Assembly (NCBI RefSeq): GCF_900129875.1
Contig: NZ_FQXC01000001.1
Coordinates: forward strand, 744,001 to 808,000
Source: Marivita hallyeonensis
GTDB taxonomy: Bacteria; Pseudomonadota; Alphaproteobacteria; Rhodobacterales; Rhodobacteraceae
Length of the DNA: 64,000 nt
Reading direction: 5' to 3'
Shown here piece by piece: positions 1,711 to 31,188 of the stretch (position 1 is the first letter of the stretch; each line of letters opens with the position of its first letter). The position numbers and the translations under genes are program-made. Under the pieces are notes generated by a model that was given only the letters and a program-made list of their open reading frames with translations, was not told the origin of the DNA and did no database searches.

Positions 1711-2136
1711 TCAAAGCCGCATGTGACGGGCCCGCGATCCGCGTTCGATGGCGGCGGCGTGCAGGCGGTCGATTTCCAGCTCGTACCGGACTTCTTCCAG
1801 AAGGCGCAGCTCGGTTTCTTTCAGCGTCCCGTCCGCTGCCGCAACGTCGCAGGCCAGCGCGTAGGCTGTCTCGAACAATCGCGTGGGCAGATTGTCCCGG
1901 ATCAGTCCAAACAAAGCGTCAAGACCGTCTTCCTGCTCGAACAGATCGAAGACCAGAGCGGACATCGTCGGGATACGCCCCTCATCGTATTCGGCGAAAA
2001 CCGGCAGATTGTTCACCGCTGACTGGATCTTGACGAGTTCGGCCGTGCCGATGCTCTCGTCAGAGGCAGATACGGCAATCATCAGGGCCACAAGGCAATC
2101 CTGCGGGCTGAGCGGGTGGGGATCGGTATCGGGCAC
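1711..2136 (-). CDS. TerB-family tellurite-resistance-like protein
   Basis: An all-helical acidic protein of 141 residues matching the TerB/DjlA-N fold: repeated D-E and A-A-D-G helical hairpins such as ISASDESIGTAELVKIQ and VAAADGTLKETELRLLEEV, which carry the metal-binding acidic residues of this fold. Despite the family name, a role in tellurite resistance is not established for stand-alone members. It lies 27 bases upstream of the sulfotransferase gene on the same strand, so the two may be cotranscribed. It is divergent from the lysyl-tRNA synthetase gene across 127 bases. Confidence 0.78.
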   Translation of the reverse strand: MPDTDPHPLSPQDCLVALMIAVSASDESIGTAELVKIQSAVNNLPVFAEYDEGRIPTMSALVFDLFEQEDGLDALFGLIRDNLPTRLFETAYALACDVAAADGTLKETELRLLEEVRYELEIDRLHAAAIERGSRARHMRL

Positions 2137-2263
2137 GGGGATCGCTTTCCTGGTCTGGGGCCGGTTCCATCCAACTTATTGACGCTCCCGCGCCCCCGCA
2201 ATAGGGAGTGCCCTTTGAACGCCCTGACAGGTGCGTGAGTCAAACATCCGGAGTGAATGAGCA

Positions 2264-3841
2264 ATGTCCGATCTGCGCGAAGCTGCAATGACCTCAAAGG
2301 CGTGGCCCTTTGAAGAGGCGCGTCGGCTGCTCAAACGCTACGAGAAGGCTCCGCCCGAAAAGGGATACGTGCTGTTCGAGACGGGTTACGGTCCCTCCGG
2401 CCTGCCGCATATCGGGACGTTTGGTGAGGTGCTGCGCACCACGATGATCCGACACGCGTTCGAGGTGATCTCGGACATTCCGACCCGTCTGATCTGTTTC
2501 TCCGACGATCTGGACGGTATGCGAAAGGTGCCCGGCAACCTGCCGAACCAGGAAATGCTGGCCGAGCACTTGCAAATGCCGCTGACCTCGGTGCCCGATC
2601 CATTCGAAGAGTACGAAAGCTTCGGCCACCACAACAACGCGATGTTGCGCCGGTTCCTTGACACGTTTGGGTTCGAATACGAGTTCTACTCGGCGACCGA
2701 GTTCTACAGATCCGGCCAGTTCGACGAGATCCTCCTCCGCGCCTGCGAGAAGTACGACGACATCATGGCCGTCATGCTCAAGTCTCTGCGCGAGGAACGC
2801 CAGCAGACCTATTCGATCTTCCTGCCGATCCACCCGGAAACCGGCCGCGTGCTCTACGTGCCGATGAAGAACGTTGATGCCGCCAAGGGCGAGATCACCT
2901 TCGACGACGAAACGGGTCGCGAATGGACGCTGCCGGTCACCGGTGGCAACGTCAAATTCCAGTGGAAGCCCGATTTCGGCGCGCGCTGGGCAGCGCTCGG
3001 CGTCGATTTCGAGATGTACGGCAAGGACCATTCCACCAACACGCCGATCTACGACCAGATTTGCCGCATCCTTGGCCAGCCTGCGCCCGAACATTTCGTC
3101 TATGAGCTGTTCCTCGACGATCAGGGACAGAAGATCTCCAAATCGACCGGCAACGGGATCAGCATCGATGAATGGCTCAGCTACGCCTCGACCGAGTCGC
3201 TCAGCTATTTCATGTTCCAGAAGCCGAAGACGGCGAAGCGGCTCTATTTTGACGTGATCCCCAAGGCGGTGGATGAATACCACCAGCAACTGCGCGCCTA
3301 TCCGACGCAGGATGCCAAGGCGCAGGCGGCGAACCCGGTCTGGCACATCCATTCCGGCGACGTGCCGGAGTCTAAGATGGTGGTGCCGTTCTCGATGCTG
3401 TTGAACCTCGCCTCAGCCGCGCACGCGGAAAACAAGGATGCGATGTGGGGCTTTATCCAGCGCTACGCGCCCGATGCGACGCCCGACACGCATCCCGATC
3501 TCGATCAGGCGGCGGGCTTTGCGGTGAAGTATTACGAAGACTTCGTGAAACCCACCAAAGTCTTCCGCGCGCCGGATGAAAAAGAGCGGGCGGCGATGGA
3601 GGATCTGGCATCGCGGCTAGAGGCGCATGAGGGTCCGACCGATGACGAGACTCTGCAATCGCTGGTCTTTGCGGTTGGCAAGGATCACGACTTCGATCCG
3701 CTCCGCGATTGGTTCAAGGCGCTGTACGAGGTGCTGCTCGGTCAGTCGCAGGGTCCGCGCTTCGGTGGTTTCATCGCGCTGTACGGCGTGAACGAGACCG
3801 TGGCGTTGATCCGCAAAGGACTGGCGGGCGAATTGTCGTGA
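2264..3841 (+). CDS. lysS: Lysine--tRNA ligase, class I
   Basis: Charges tRNA-Lys with lysine in the cytoplasm. At 525 residues it has the length of the class I (archaeal-type) enzyme, also called LysK, which alphaproteobacteria use instead of class II LysRS. The Rossmann catalytic domain carries the HIGH-like signature at residues 48-51 (PHIG in [12 protein letters not shown]) and the KMSKS-like loop at 290-294 (KISKS). The C-terminal half is helical and binds the anticodon. The start at 2264 gives eight residues before a second methionine at 2288, and either could be used. A perfect hairpin follows six bases after the stop. Confidence 0.95.
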
Positions 3842-26539: not shown

Positions 26540-27543
26540 TGGACGAAGACCAGCTTGACCGCATCAGACGCCTGCCCAAGGTCGAGCTTCACCTGCACCA
26601 CGAAGGGGCCGCACCACCCGCCTTCATCAAAGGGCTGGCGCAGGAAAAATCCGTCAATCTCGACGGCGTGTTCACACCCGATGGCAGCTATGCCTTCCGC
26701 GATTTCGTCCATTTCCTGAGCGTCTACGAAGCCGCCACGAGCGTGCTCAAAACGCCCGAGGATTACGCCCGCCTGACCAAAGCCGTGCTTGAGGAAAGCG
26801 CGGCAAACGACGTTGTCTATTCGGAAACCTTCCTGTCACCGGATTTCTGCGGCGGCGGCGATGTGGGTGCGTGGCGCGAATACCTGCACGCGATCATCGA
26901 AGCGGCGAACGAGGCAGAGCGCGATAGCGGGATCATCCTGCGCGGCATTGTCACCTGCATCCGTCATTTCGGACCCGAAAAGGCCAAGGCGGCGGCGCTC
27001 TGCGCGGCTGAAACGGCGGGAGATTGGATCACCGGGTTCGGCATCGCAGGTGACGAGATGAAGGGCAAGCCCAAAGACTTCGCCTACAGCTTTGACATGG
27101 CGCGCGAAGCGGGTCTGCGCCTGACCGCCCATGCGGGCGAGTGGGGCGGCGCGCAATCGGTGGCGGCCTCGATCCGCGACCTGCGCGTCGAACGCATCGG
27201 CCACGGCGTTCACGCCATCAACGATCTCGCACTGGTGGACGAGATCATCGAGAGCGGGATCACGCTCGAAGTGTGCCCCGGATCGAACGTGACCTTGGGC
27301 GTCTACCCGAGCCTTGCCAAACATCCCATCGAACACCTGCGGGACCGCGGTGTGAAGGTGACCGTCTCGACCGACGATCCGCCCTTCTTTCACACCACGA
27401 TGCGCGACGAATACCTCAACCTCGCCCGGACCTTCGGCTGGGATGAGGAGGTGTTCGGCGACATCAACGAAACAGCGGCCAAAGCCGCCTTTTGCGACGA
27501 GGACACGCGCGACCGTGTCCTGAAACGACTGGAGCGCACATGA
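26536..27543 (+). CDS. add: Adenosine deaminase family protein
   Basis: Hydrolytically deaminates adenosine (or adenine) in purine salvage. A TIM-barrel metal enzyme of 335 residues: the first His-x-His is in [14 protein letters not shown], the catalytic glutamate lies in [12 protein letters not shown], and the acidic end motif is [13 protein letters not shown]. Its position inside a nucleoside operon favours adenosine as substrate, although adenine aminohydrolases share these motifs. The start overlaps the deoB stop (ATGATGG) and the stop overlaps upp by four bases. Confidence 0.88.
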
Positions 27544-28172
27544 CCGACCACCTGACCATCGTCGACCACCCGCTTGTTCAGCACAAGCTGAGCCTGATGC
27601 GCGAGAAAGACACGTCCACCAAGTCGTTCCGGCAGTTGCTGCGTGAAATCAGTCACTTGCTGGCCTACGAGGTGACGCGCAATCTGCCTCTCACGACGAA
27701 GCGCATCGAAACACCGCTCTGCGAGATGGACGCACCCGTGATCGAGGGCAAAAAGCTCGCCCTGATCTCGATCCTGCGCGCGGGCAACGGCCTGCTCGAC
27801 GGTATCCTCGAACTGATCCCGGCGGCGCGAGTGGGCTTCGTCGGCCTTTACCGCGACGAGGAAACGCTGAAACCGGTGCAGTACTACTTCAAGGTGCCCG
27901 CCGAACTCGAAGACCGCGTGACCATTATCGTCGACCCGATGCTCGCCACCGGCAACAGCTCTGTCGCCGCGATCGATCTGGTCAAGGGCGCCGGGGCGAA
28001 GAACATCATCTTCCTCTGCCTGCTCGCCGCACCCGAAGGCGTCGCCCGCATGAAAGAAGCCCACCCCGACGTGCCCATCGTCACAGCGGCGCTGGACAGC
28101 CACCTGAACGAGCTTGGCTATATCGTCCCGGGCCTCGGCGATGCCGGGGACCGGATGTTCGGGACGAAATAG
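27540..28172 (+). CDS. upp: Uracil phosphoribosyltransferase
   Basis: Makes UMP from uracil and PRPP. 210 residues. The PRPP-binding loop is [17 protein letters not shown] and the uracil-binding C terminus is [17 protein letters not shown]. It is the last gene of the salvage operon. The stop TAG (28170-28172) lies inside the 8 bp target duplication of the IS1595-family element inserted directly after it, so the coding sequence is intact and the downstream part of the transcript has been displaced 3 kb. Confidence 0.95.
28165..28172. repeat. Left 8-bp target-site duplication of the IS1595-family element
   Basis: CGAAATAG, repeated exactly at 31181-31188 on the far side of the element. The length agrees with the 8 bp duplications of the IS1595 family. 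The sequence contains the last codon (AAA) and the stop (TAG) of upp. Confidence 0.85.
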
Positions 28173-28196
28173 CGGCCTTATGTATCAAGCGCACCA
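28173..28196 (+). repeat. Left terminal inverted repeat of the IS1595-family element
   Basis: 24 bases starting CGGCCTTATG, matching the complement of 31157-31180 at 23 of 24 positions. Confidence 0.9.
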
Positions 28197-28232
28197 ACAA
28201 TCTAGCGGATCTTCTGCCCCGTGTGAATCATC

Positions 28233-28655
28233 ATGCGGGGTATGATTAAGAAGTTGAAAATCGGCAGGCACAGCGACGAGACAATCAATATCTCGCTGTA
28301 CTACCTACGCGCTCAAATCATCCGCAATGATGCTGATGGGCTAGAGCATGTCGAAGCCATCATGAGGCTACGCGGGCTTGCTCTGGACGCTTTGTCAGTG
28401 CCTGAGAAGCGCAACAGGCGGTTTCGCAAGGGTCAGCTACGGCAGGCGATACTTGATGAACTCCGCAAGGGTCCGCTCACGTCACGCCAGATCGCAGAGG
28501 CGATAGGGCACGAGCGGAACAACTTTGCTCACACGCTGCAAGCGCTCAAGGCGCGTGGTGTGGTGCAGCGGGATGGACGGGTGTGGAGGTTAATTGCGGG
28601 AAGCCACTATATCGCTGATCCTGCTAAGGACATAAGACCCAAGCATGAAAATTAA
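28233..28655 (+). CDS. Passenger gene: winged-helix-like DNA-binding protein
   Basis: A basic protein of 140 residues. The middle (QAILDELRKGPLTSRQIAEA, then HTLQALKARGVVQRDGRVW) looks like a winged-helix domain: a helix-turn-helix followed by a hairpin wing. No catalytic motif is visible and the N-terminal 60 residues match nothing I recognise. A start at 28242 is also possible. It is the first passenger after the left terminal repeat. The 3' end overlaps the opposing small membrane-protein gene by 66 bases, which is unusual but possible in mobile DNA. Confidence 0.6.
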   Translation: MRGMIKKLKIGRHSDETINISLYYLRAQIIRNDADGLEHVEAIMRLRGLALDALSVPEKRNRRFRKGQLRQAILDELRKGPLTSRQIAEAIGHERNNFAHTLQALKARGVVQRDGRVWRLIAGSHYIADPAKDIRPKHEN

Positions 28656-28808
28656 GCCTGTGGCCGTCAAATATGCTGCCGTTTCTCCCCAATAGGCACT
28701 GTCAAGAAAGATAGACATGACACCGCCAATCAACAGCAATGCCCACGGCACAATTGCACCGAAGAACACGCATACCGCGCAAATTGCATTAATGTGGTCG
28801 TCATTCAT
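28590..28808 (-). CDS. Passenger gene: small membrane protein
   Basis: A hydrophobic protein of 72 residues with two probable transmembrane helices (AICAVCVFFGAIVPWALLL and AAYLTATGLIFMLGSYVL) and a short charged tail. No family recognised. Its start overlaps the stop of the next small gene by four bases (ATGA, 28805-28808), a coupling that supports both being real. Located inside the IS1595-family element, downstream of the transposase gene on the same strand. Confidence 0.5.
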   Translation of the reverse strand: MNDDHINAICAVCVFFGAIVPWALLLIGGVMSIFLDSAYWGETAAYLTATGLIFMLGSYVLSRISDIVASRN

Positions 28809-29005
28809 TCTTCGTCTCCCGACTCACGGCAAAAAGCCTCAAGCCCCCATAAGATCGCAAGTATCGTACCACAGACGATCCAAAAGGTACCTGTGGCAAA
28901 AAGATATTTCTCTAAGTTCTCAGCGCAAGCCACTAAAGCTATGAAGCCTGCGCCGCCACAACCCAACACCTTGGAAATACACTTGCGAATCGGGGGCTTA
29001 CTCAA
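28805..29005 (-). CDS. Passenger gene: small membrane protein
   Basis: A protein of 66 residues with two hydrophobic stretches (CGGAGFIALVACAENL and GTFWIVCGTILAILWGLEAF) separated by a short polar loop. No family recognised. It lies between the transposase stop (44 bases away) and the second small membrane protein, with which it is translationally coupled. The two could be co-expressed from the transposase transcript. Confidence 0.5.
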   Translation of the reverse strand: MSKPPIRKCISKVLGCGGAGFIALVACAENLEKYLFATGTFWIVCGTILAILWGLEAFCRESGDEE

Positions 29006-29049
29006 GCTATCAACAGTCCGTTAACAAATCGTAACGCGAACAATGCACG

Positions 29050-30012
29050 TTACACCGCCCGTTGCCAATACCCTTTCCAGTTGCGTGAAACCCGTGCGCC
29101 CATCGCATTGCTGACCAGCGTGTGTGCCAGAGTGCCGTTATCGGTGCGGCGGTTGTCTTCCAGCCATGCAGAGTGGTTCGCGTACTGGTGAAGGTACTGC
29201 GGGCTGACGTGGTGGTGTTGACCAACGACCATGCGGCGCAGGCGCGAGAAATAGCTTTCGACCATGTTGGTGTGCTTGCCGTGGTCGCTGTAGATTTCGC
29301 TATGGTTCACGCGCTCGACATCCCAACCCGCGTGCAGCAAGTCCCAATGGCTTGCTTCGTCTGCCGACAGAGTAGCCATGCGGTCAACATTCTCGTTCAC
29401 CAGAGCAACGCCTTCCCCCTCAGTGCGGGTAACAAACGGAAGAACGCGGCCTTGACGCTCACGCAGGGCAACAACGACGCGGCGCTTGTCCGAGCGGTTC
29501 TCTTTCAAACGGCGGTCCTTGCGGTCCGCTTTGGCGTTCTCAGGGCGAACGTGACCGCCAAAGTATGCGCCATCAACTTCGACGTGACCGCCAAGCACAA
29601 CGCCTGTCTGGACCTCTTGCGCCATCGCCTCACGGAGTTTGTGGGCCAGCACGAAGGCTGTCTTGTAATGGCAGTCCAGATCGCGGGAAAGCTGGATCAT
29701 GCTGACGCCCTTGGAGGCGTTGACCATAATGCAGATCGCGGCCAGCAGGTCCACAAAGTCCATCTTGCGGCTGGCAAAGATGGTGCCGGATGTAACGCTG
29801 AACTGGTGCGCACATGCCTTGCACTTAAACTTGCGGCGCGTGGTGATCTTGTAGGTTTCGTCATGGCTGCAACGCGGGCAAACCGCTTCGCCATTAGTCT
29901 CAGGCCAGCGCATTTCGCAGAACGTCTGGTAAGCCGCTTCTTCACCAGCCTTGTAGATCGCACGAAGGCTGAGAGTGCGGGACGCTGCGGAGAGAAGGAA
30001 GTGCTGTGCCAT
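29050..30012 (-). CDS. IS1595 family transposase (ISXO2-like DDE domain)
   Basis: A protein of 320 residues. The N terminus has a zinc ribbon with cysteines 45, 48, 64 and 67 (CPRC, CKAC). The catalytic ISXO2-like domain follows with acidic residues at D147 (HVEVDGAYFGG), D218 (LSADEASHWD) and E252 (HTNMVESYFSR), and the family pattern HSEIYSDHGKHTN. Full length with no frameshift, so the transposase may be active. The promoter region faces the DUF6471 gene across 103 AT-rich bases, which could allow coordinated control of the two directions. Confidence 0.92.
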   Translation of the reverse strand: MAQHFLLSAASRTLSLRAIYKAGEEAAYQTFCEMRWPETNGEAVCPRCSHDETYKITTRRKFKCKACAHQFSVTSGTIFASRKMDFVDLLAAICIMVNASKGVSMIQLSRDLDCHYKTAFVLAHKLREAMAQEVQTGVVLGGHVEVDGAYFGGHVRPENAKADRKDRRLKENRSDKRRVVVALRERQGRVLPFVTRTEGEGVALVNENVDRMATLSADEASHWDLLHAGWDVERVNHSEIYSDHGKHTNMVESYFSRLRRMVVGQHHHVSPQYLHQYANHSAWLEDNRRTDNGTLAHTLVSNAMGARVSRNWKGYWQRAV

Positions 30013-30115
30013 TTTATACTGTATCCGTTATCTACATATCGAACATAGTATAGTGACATACTGCTTGCAATAGGTTATATATCGTAAATGTTAGGTTTTA
30101 CATCATAGGTGATAT

Positions 30116-30340
30116 ATGCCAGATCAGAACGAGTGGGAAAAGATGGCCGCAGGGCTGCTCAAAGCAGAGTTGAAACGTAAGGGGGTGACTTACGCTCAAC
30201 TTGTTGAAAGGCTTGCTGATATTGGAATCAGTGAGAAAGAGGTGAACGTCGCCAACAAGCTGTCCAGAGGGAAGTTTTCAGCGGCGTTTATGTTGGCATG
30301 TTTAAAAGCCGTTGGAGTAACGGATTTGCGAGTGGGCTAG
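30116..30340 (+). CDS. Passenger gene: DUF6471 domain protein
   Basis: A helical, HTH-like protein of 74 residues. WEKMAAGLLKAELKRKGVTY and NVANKLSRGKFSAAFMLACL match the DUF6471 pattern, probably a small DNA-binding module similar to Cro/C1-type folds. It is divergent from the transposase gene, which fits a role in controlling transposition or cargo expression (inference). Its last 43 bases overlap the start of the following membrane-protein gene in another frame. Confidence 0.72.
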   Translation: MPDQNEWEKMAAGLLKAELKRKGVTYAQLVERLADIGISEKEVNVANKLSRGKFSAAFMLACLKAVGVTDLRVG

Positions 30341-31098
30341 TCGTTTGCCTTTGTGTCGCTGCGTTTGCGCTTGCAGTTGCGACCGTAGGACACGACAGCG
30401 CTAGCGCAATTTCCAATAACCCAAACCAAGGAGCCTACAATTCCAATCAGTGCGGCAATGGGAATGAGCCAGTATGGGGGCCATGGTTTGGGTTGTGCTT
30501 CGGACTTTACGACAGTTTGGCACAATGGATCATGATGGCCTTCACGGTAATCGCTGCCGGGCTGCTTCTCGGAACACTCTACGAAGCCAACAAAACGAAC
30601 CTTGCCGTACTGCGCGCGAATGAAATCATGATTTCGGAGCAGCGGCCTTGGCTCTCGTGTGAGATTGACCTTTTTGGCTTTAAAGATGACCGAGGAATCG
30701 AGACCGTTTGCGACTACACCATTTACAATCACGGCAAGAGACCCGGCTTTGACGCGATGATCATTGTCCGGCCAGTTCAGTACTATACATGGCAAGATGT
30801 CAGAAATGTAATCAAAGAAATGAAGCACGGCCTTAACATGGAGCGCCGTGCGGACTTGCCCGTTGTTTATCCAGGCGTGCCTTTGGTCAAGCCGCAGACC
30901 CACAGGCAAATTGGTGGTATGCTGGGACACAGCGGGCCAAATCTCGCGTTGATTTCTGTTTTGGCATATCGCGTCACGCCCGAGAGCAAAAGTAGAGATG
31001 GCATGGAAATCAGAGCTTACGATGTCCTTCGCAAGAGTGACACTCCTAACGGGCATAGTGGCAGGGTAGAGCAGCACGAGGACGGATTTGTCTTGTGA
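30298..31098 (+). CDS. Passenger gene: membrane protein of unknown function
   Basis: A protein of 266 residues. There is a hydrophobic segment near the N terminus (FASGLVVCLCVAAFALAVAT) and a second one around residue 80 (WIMMAFTVIAAGLLLGTLYE). Then comes the motif NEIMISEQRPWLSCEI, which I recognise from many uncharacterised proteobacterial proteins, and a soluble C-terminal domain of beta character. The opposite strand is also open but hydropathy and this motif favour the plus strand. The first 43 bases overlap the DUF6471 gene. A start further inside is possible. Confidence 0.65.
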   Translation: MFKSRWSNGFASGLVVCLCVAAFALAVATVGHDSASAISNNPNQGAYNSNQCGNGNEPVWGPWFGLCFGLYDSLAQWIMMAFTVIAAGLLLGTLYEANKTNLAVLRANEIMISEQRPWLSCEIDLFGFKDDRGIETVCDYTIYNHGKRPGFDAMIIVRPVQYYTWQDVRNVIKEMKHGLNMERRADLPVVYPGVPLVKPQTHRQIGGMLGHSGPNLALISVLAYRVTPESKSRDGMEIRAYDVLRKSDTPNGHSGRVEQHEDGFVL

Positions 31099-31156
31099 AA
31101 TTATTGCAAGCGCCAGAGCCAACGCCTTAATCACCGCTCAACCCTCCGAAGTGGGC

Positions 31157-31180
31157 TGGTGCGTTTGATACATAAGGCCG
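31157..31180 (-). repeat. Right terminal inverted repeat of the IS1595-family element
   Basis: Complement of the left end, one mismatch. It ends in CATAAGGCCG immediately before the right target duplication. Confidence 0.9.
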
Positions 31181-31188
31181 CGAAATAG
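31181..31188. repeat. Right 8-bp target-site duplication
   Basis: CGAAATAG, identical to 28165-28172. Removing the element and one copy would restore a continuous sequence running from upp into the 31.2 kb region. Confidence 0.85.

Follow-up and report, generated by a model that had tools for sequence, protein, structure and literature searches.

A 64,000-nucleotide stretch of the Marivita hallyeonensis genome (contig NZ_FQXC01000001.1, positions 744,001 to 808,000; hereafter the window) carries, at positions 28173 to 31180, an intact IS1595-type element of 3,008 bp. Small insertion sequences (ISs) are usually viewed as a transposase that is at most accompanied now and then by a resistance gene, and passenger-bearing IS1595 elements are already known; what is new here is a two-slot cassette organisation. 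We suggest herein that this element belongs, as an intact copy, to a Rhodobacterales clade of IS1595-family transposons that act as two-slot cassette carriers, with predicted repression by a DUF6471 protein and exchange of cargo, a reading to which we assign a probability of roughly 0.7 on the basis of comparisons among related sequences. Read with the transposase gene on the minus strand, the element comprises, in sequence from its left end, a winged helix-turn-helix (wHTH) gene (plus strand), slot A, the transposase gene, the DUF6471 gene (plus strand), slot B and the right end.

The borders of the element are sharply defined. Its terminal inverted repeats (28173 to 28196 on the plus strand, 31157 to 31180 on the minus strand) are identical at 23 of 24 positions, and an exact 8-bp target duplication, CGAAATAG, lies at 28165 to 28172 and again at 31181 to 31188, as the original prediction had described. 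When the 24-bp end pattern was searched in the 4.19-Mb genome with up to three mismatches, the two ends of the element were the sole matches, and a reversed control of the pattern had none; a chance origin of the borders is therefore not plausible. The host gene upp (uracil phosphoribosyltransferase; 27540 to 28172, plus strand; PF14681, 250 bits) has its stop codon inside the left copy of the duplication and therefore remains whole. The GC content of the element is 53.2%, against 60.8% for the window. The gene downstream was found in all 17 genomes of the genus, including the window's own, and in 11 of them the site is empty, upp leading into that gene over 51 to 63 bp and the target octamer, unaltered or changed at one or two bases, lying at the upp stop. 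This comparison argues against a cargo that is ancestral to the locus; together with the real borders and the other copies with the same ends described below, it bears out the suggestion that the region is a mobile module.

Assignment to the IS1595 family, also predicted beforehand, follows from the transposase domain, the zinc ribbon, the paired ends and the 8-bp duplication, all of which are present in the sequence; eight base pairs is the usual duplication length in this family. The transposase gene (29050 to 30012, minus strand; 320 amino acids (aa)) has an intact frame and encodes a DDE domain (PF12762, 126 bits against a cut-off of 27, E = 1.3e-36; NF033547 of NCBIfam, 149 bits against 75) preceded by an N-terminal zinc ribbon (PF12760, 53 bits against 25.4, E = 2.7e-14). 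It accounts for 963 of the 3,008 bp (32%), or the third that had been estimated. The first backbone gene (28233 to 28655, plus strand) encodes a winged-helix protein of 140 aa with sub-threshold winged-helix matches, and the third (30116 to 30340, plus strand; divergent from the transposase gene) a DUF6471 protein of 74 aa (PF20075, 106 bits against 26.8) that is predicted to be an XRE-type regulator. DUF6471 was found in 29 of 295 genomes of the family and in none of 14 control genomes. Sequence searches of the Protein Data Bank (PDB) with profiles of the wHTH, DUF6471 and 266-aa families gave no convincing relative. Against the PADLOC models, the wHTH protein yielded nothing beyond weak CARF/Csa3 matches (best E 0.003). 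In an alignment of wHTH homologues, the N-terminal half is highly variable, while the position of the gene and the winged-helix part are kept.

Relatives were collected with the transposase. Among the 295 family genomes, 21 had one match each at E <= 1e-60, and from a wider contig scan the best 80 of 322 loci were used. In all, 104 loci were examined (the window, three of the same genus, 20 from family genomes and 80 from the wider scan); paired ends 1.2 to 9 kb apart were found in 92, and the 12 without ends (3 of the 20 and 9 of the 80) were not counted. Removal of 15 duplicates left 77 distinct elements of 2,346 to 4,633 bp (median 3,373), none of them a bare IS; the search for further copies with the same ends thus gave the outcome that the original prediction had looked for. 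A perfect 8-bp duplication flanks 68 of the 77; among the other nine, the contig ends too early in two, a single base is mismatched in two and the difference is larger in five. Genes were called with a simple position-specific model, a codon-usage caller trained on the transposases having been dropped as overfitted, and short open reading frames (ORFs) may be spurious. A tblastn search located the transposase in all 77 elements, in 75 of which it was also called as an ORF, and relatives of the wHTH protein and of DUF6471 were each called in 75. These two genes are thus part of a conserved backbone and not passengers. All the ORFs listed in the original prediction are present; of its five passengers, those of 66, 72 and 266 aa stand, and the number is therefore three. 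Their presence between the ends, as genes without a part in transposition, is the trait of a transporter IS.

The contents of the slots differ from copy to copy. The 77 elements hold 201 cargo ORFs (109 in slot A and 92 in slot B, four ORFs overlying the transposase being excluded), which fall into 105 clusters, 79 of them singletons. With singletons included, 71 distinct combinations of slot A and slot B occur, and the notion of a fixed cargo set has to be given up. Among 60 pairs of elements with a common slot-A family, slot B differs in 47. The window's cargo is unlike that of copies with 97 to 98% identical transposases, in both slots; likewise, between the window and the same-genus copies the backbone aligns and the slot contents do not. 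On a transposase tree of 74 rows (three with stops left out), 24 changes are required for the largest slot-B family (27 rows), where shuffling gives a mean of 22.1; the figures are 12 (shuffled 11.2; 12 rows) and 8 (7.7) for the next two families, and 29 (26.9) for six slot-B families taken jointly (56 rows). For eight of the nine slot-A families tried, the number of changes equals the number of members. Because the changes match the shuffled means, the cargo appears to have no detectable phylogenetic memory on this tree, within the limits of its weak resolution.

A simpler explanation is that these are ordinary IS1595 elements that picked up neighbouring or random genes through imprecise events, the slots being tolerated gaps and the cargo having no common purpose. 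Passenger-bearing transporters of the family such as tISCpe8 and MTnSag1 are on record (described in part of PMC5704250), in the elements inspected the sequence beyond the transposase stop codon is not conserved, and three quarters of the cargo clusters (79 of 105) are singletons. However, no bare copy occurs among the 77 delimited elements, slot B has a called ORF in every one of them and encodes a membrane protein in 66, and certain cassettes of two genes turn up again, in the same slot, in distant elements. We consider this explanation unlikely.

Bare forms do exist further afield. Fourteen plasmid records contain relatives of the transposase at 42 to 62% identity, and five were fetched. 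Those from Limimaricola (L143; 1,543 bp) and Skermanella (L145; 1,688 bp) are bare two-gene ISs with perfect duplications, made up of the transposase and a convergent wHTH gene, with no DUF6471. A third (L146) has ends delimiting 3,021 bp with an extra gene, the one from Methylobacterium (L147; 62%) has DUF6471 and wHTH genes but no ends were found, and no ends were found in L144. Because L143 and L145 carry the wHTH gene without DUF6471 or slots, the comparison suggests that the wHTH gene is the older partner of the transposase and that DUF6471 and the slots were added later, though they may instead have been lost in the bare forms. Phage sequences gave two weak transposase relatives, both from uncultured records.

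Slot B, the interval between the DUF6471 gene and the right end, is in the window filled by one gene for a 266-aa membrane protein (30298 to 31098, plus strand), which begins inside the DUF6471 gene with an overlap of 43 nucleotides (nt). Hydropathy indicates two hydrophobic stretches, and a C-terminal beta domain appears in a structural model (pLDDT 72). A fold search with that model returned nothing at E <= 0.001, and its weak beta-sandwich and Kir-type matches were set aside as uninformative. The protein belongs to the largest cargo cluster, found in 28 elements, always in slot B and on the plus strand; in all 25 parsed members the gene starts 39 to 45 nt ahead of the DUF6471 end, and DUF6471 is of a long form. 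Relatives of the 266-aa protein occur in 21 of the 295 family genomes, some of which lack DUF6471, and the protein family is therefore not confined to this element; the plasmid search found none. In an alignment, the family looks mosaic, similar N-terminal membrane halves being joined to different C-terminal halves and vice versa. By hydropathy, slot B encodes a membrane protein in 66 of 77 elements, compared with 14 of the 68 that have slot-A ORFs and 12 of 56 flanking ORFs. At E <= 0.01, slot-B representatives match seven Pfam families, which include Peptidase_M78 and parts of other transposases; their PADLOC matches are capP, RmrA and a few others. A recurring slot-B pair, a small membrane protein with a second small protein, was noticed in L070, L080 and L137, and one slot-B representative matches DUF3467.

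The near-universal presence of slot-B genes, whose otherwise unrelated products often have a common N-terminal membrane region, could mean that these proteins work for the element and not for the host, helping it, say, to transfer or to exclude other elements. Against this, the bare elements L143 and L145 have only the transposase and wHTH genes between their ends, and the wider family therefore manages without a slot-B protein; moreover, the largest slot-B family has relatives in genomes in which, within the same sample, no DUF6471 was detected. A service to the element seems to us improbable.

Slot A, between the wHTH and transposase genes, holds in the window a pair of small membrane proteins, both on the minus strand. 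The first gene (28805 to 29005; 66 aa) has a TTG start and overlaps the second (28590 to 28808; 72 aa) by 4 nt. The gene caller picks instead a 76-aa plus-strand ORF, for which the support is poorer than for the conserved 66-aa ORF. Homologues of the 66-aa protein are 61% identical in the same slot of L061 (genome G294) and 45% identical in genome G027. The pair as a whole is found in slot A of L061, which comes from another genus, differs in its slot B, has a broken transposase and is flanked by two unlike octamers. Because the pair recurs there, both ORFs are probably real genes. In G027 (L153), the pair stands free, with no ends, transposase, wHTH or DUF6471 gene within the 3.2 kb inspected, and is flanked by what we take to be typA and a gene for a Fur-type regulator.

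For a wider view of the cargo, 56 of the 74 slot-A and 30 of the 31 slot-B representatives were scanned. Only 18 Pfam families were matched at E <= 0.001 by the 56 slot-A proteins, compared with 58 by 56 flanking ORFs. They include SocA_Panacea and DUF3800 (two members each), RhuM, Bro-N, HicB, RelE, DUF4258, MqsA, PBECR3 and NYN. Slot-A proteins with PADLOC matches are BstA (L126), PDC-S05/S23 (L073, one and the same protein), HEC-09 (L131), PDC-M04A (L132), DUF3800_VII (L133), PDC-M06B (L117) and, weakly, PDC-M14A (L054). The flanking ORFs match nine PADLOC models, or about 4 of 56 proteins if six ZorB models share one protein. We claim no strong enrichment of slot A in defence genes. The defence and toxin-antitoxin content of slot A is a tendency and not proof of a defence role. 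Such a role, which had been raised as a possibility for the window's cargo, seems plausible for the element family from the candidate-defence and toxin-antitoxin families carried by some relatives, but the window's own cargo has no PADLOC match. Separately, a nearly identical HicAB-like pair occurs in slot A of L020 (genome G015, a degraded same-genus copy) and of L091 from another organism, the HicB-like proteins being identical at 131 of the final 134 residues.

A regulatory role for DUF6471 is suggested by the region between its gene and that of the transposase, which measures 103 bp in the window. In the window, an imperfect dyad of 12 of 17 pairs (30017 to 30050), a putative DUF6471 operator, lies just upstream of the transposase start. 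In 55 of 73 such regions, the best dyad of the spacer has its centre 19 to 22 bp away from the start of the transposase; it scores 11.6 of 17 pairs against 9.6 in shuffles, with z > 2 in 55%. Sequence distance in this stretch follows DUF6471 distance (Mantel r 0.63, n = 66, 0 of 499 permutations), a correlation unchanged after allowing for the transposase, and is hardly related to the distance of the wHTH protein (r 0.04) or of the transposase (r 0.09). Because the dyad varies with DUF6471 and not with the transposase or the wHTH protein, DUF6471 is predicted to be an element-borne repressor of transposition. An AlphaFold2 (AF2) model of the protein shows a four-helix domain (pLDDT 82) whose Foldseek neighbours are mostly XRE regulators, with probabilities up to 0.97, template-modelling (TM) scores of about 0.6 to 0.7 and weak E-values of 0.2 to 1. 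The restriction-modification controllers C.BclI and C.EcoT38IS come first, followed by C.Esp1396I, and HipB antitoxins are among the neighbours. The likeness to such C proteins and other XRE repressors lies in a predicted fold and in a divergent promoter region with a dyad; C proteins, however, control a restriction system, whereas DUF6471 would, if the prediction is right, control a transposase.

The HipB-like neighbours, along with the overlap between the long-form DUF6471 gene and the start of the largest slot-B family, would also fit an arrangement in which DUF6471 is an antitoxin-like partner of the slot-B membrane protein, the two forming a system that rides in the element. But DUF6471 is also kept together with an unrelated slot-B gene on the opposite strand, as happens with 31 of the 33 proteins of the short form and 6 of the 36 of the long form (a further 6 of the 75 could not be parsed), and the dyad lies about 20 bp before the start of the transposase. 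A partnership of this kind is doubtful in our view.

Close relatives are mostly single-copy in each assembly. Of 390 genomes of the order, 36 match the transposase at E <= 1e-40; the 27 genomes with a full-length transposase of at least 79% identity have one copy each, with at most five candidates scored per genome, and the remaining matches are fragments or relatives of at most 67% identity.

The target of insertion, from 67 sites, is an octamer like (C/G)AAATAT(C/G) with C-rich flanks. Several orthologous sites are occupied in different genera, some in both orientations. Six elements (L084, L088, L123, L048, L130 and L131) interrupt one conserved gene, presumably HNH-like, at the same place; they need 5 changes on the tree against a shuffled mean of 5.2, computed only against other site-group rows, and being so spread they look like independent insertions. 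Three of the six site groups, the two upp rows among them, need one change each and may be inherited. An ORF of at least 150 aa spans 35 of 66 sites, compared with 89% of 1,300 random flank positions; a general preference for gene ends was nonetheless weakened as an explanation by several common sites inside conserved coding sequence. An Rfam search of eight loci for an RNA motif as target found only a cobalamin and a SAM-SAH riboswitch.

At the upp site itself, six of the 17 same-genus genomes are occupied (the window, G015, G009 and G014, with remnants in G003 and G007), all at the identical nucleotide position. In the window, G015 and G007 the element has its wHTH end towards upp, in G014 and G009 it lies the other way round, and the remnant in G003 lacks the left end. 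These copies could descend from a single insertion in the genus, with orientation reversed by recombination between the terminal repeats and cargo replaced by later gene conversion. The shared position fits such a history, as does the placement of two upp-site rows within one three-row branch of the transposase tree, and in Wolbachia a case of inversion by way of IS ends of 23 bp has been described (PMC3004938). Yet the window and G014 are 94% identical in transposase DNA and only 86% in upp, most of the genomes have an empty site, and the elements at the HNH-like site, which differ in genus and orientation, do not cluster on the tree. A single insertion is possible, though we would place it below even odds.

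Taken as a two-slot cassette carrier, the element might work as follows. The transposase would move the entire unit, and DUF6471, as an XRE-type protein, would bind the dyad some 20 bp upstream of the transposase start and repress the transposase. On arrival in a repressor-free cell the element would jump, and it would then stay single-copy. Elements would swap cargo by recombining with one another within the conserved backbone, aided by common insertion sites, and the toxin-antitoxin-like, candidate-defence and membrane proteins would favour retention of the element or protect the host from other invaders.

Several observations weigh against this account. The gene caller errs: in L063 and L105 it reports ORFs that lie antisense to the transposase gene. 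Many assemblies are drafts, in which identical copies can collapse and so lower the copy counts, and two assemblies have two copies each (L092/L100 and L086/L125). For immunity groups, only these two co-resident pairs are at hand, and their operator differences are not significant (84th and 78th percentile of random pairs). The outer part of the intergenic region also correlates with DUF6471 (0.70), and, as the operator lies near the DUF6471 gene, linkage may supply part of the Mantel signal. The XRE assignment comes with Foldseek E-values of 0.2 to 1 and no PDB sequence match. The transposase tree is weakly resolved, with 12 of 71 inner branches starred, and some common sites may be inherited, including that of the two upp rows, since both lie in one genus-level branch. 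Lastly, no PADLOC model matches the window's 66-, 72- and 266-aa proteins up to E = 1; of the 21 slot-A representatives inspected singly, 14 are likewise without a hit, with at most one more match among the rest; and the PADLOC enrichment of slot A is weak (7 or 8 of 56, against about 4 of 56 flanking ORFs).

A more far-reaching version, which we put forward tentatively and would not call probable, is that of an IS-sized, self-limiting, phage-like cassette vehicle. DUF6471 and its operator would define immunity groups with one copy per type, the slots, reshuffled with hardly any trace of phylogeny, would be functionally distinct (soluble toxin-antitoxin or defence-like proteins in A, membrane effectors in B), common insertion sites would let incoming elements replace or recombine with residents, and defence and addiction cassettes would rotate in the population.

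Among known systems, the IS1595 transporters tISCpe8 and MTnSag1 share with the present element the transposase family, the terminal inverted repeats, the 8-bp duplication and passengers between the ends. MTnSag1 carries a resistance passenger. The passenger of tISCpe8, in the portions of the literature on it that we used, is lincomycin resistance, in contrast to the three-gene backbone and two variable slots across 77 copies here. The nearest concept is that of the Tn3 family, where, according to sections of PMC7157771, diverse toxin-antitoxin pairs hold a fixed place in the transposition module and were repeatedly acquired and exchanged by recombination. As far as those sections go, Tn3 elements differ in having their own transposase and a resolvase and mostly one such position, beside res, whereas here there are an IS1595 transposase and two slots, one with mostly membrane proteins. 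No resolvase is among the Pfam matches of the window's element, and its Pfam and NCBIfam matches include no transposition gene other than the IS1595 transposase. Tn7-like elements have a multi-protein transposition machinery and are much larger, unlike the 3-kb single-transposase element described here. They resemble it in their almost constant cargo, which sections of PMC8649781 report in 96% of elements, enriched in defence and toxin-antitoxin genes including ImmA and moving between distant hosts. Among the titles and abstract openings listed in literature searches on IS1595 passengers, transposon cargo and transporter ISs, none describes the present layout, and a literature search on DUF6471 found no paper mentioning it.

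All 77 delimited copies bear cargo, and their layout is stable. The two slots are well-defined positions in which to look for novel small proteins of the toxin-antitoxin, defence and membrane kinds in marine Alphaproteobacteria. The element also provides a testable case of transposon copy-number control by a repressor that it may itself encode, and a lead for DUF6471. In one locus (L104, about 2096 to 3304; L051 is similar), an element adjoins the remnant of another, with an 8-bp duplication common to both; the remnant in L104 consists of a transposase fragment, a wHTH gene and a relative of the HEC-09-type cargo.

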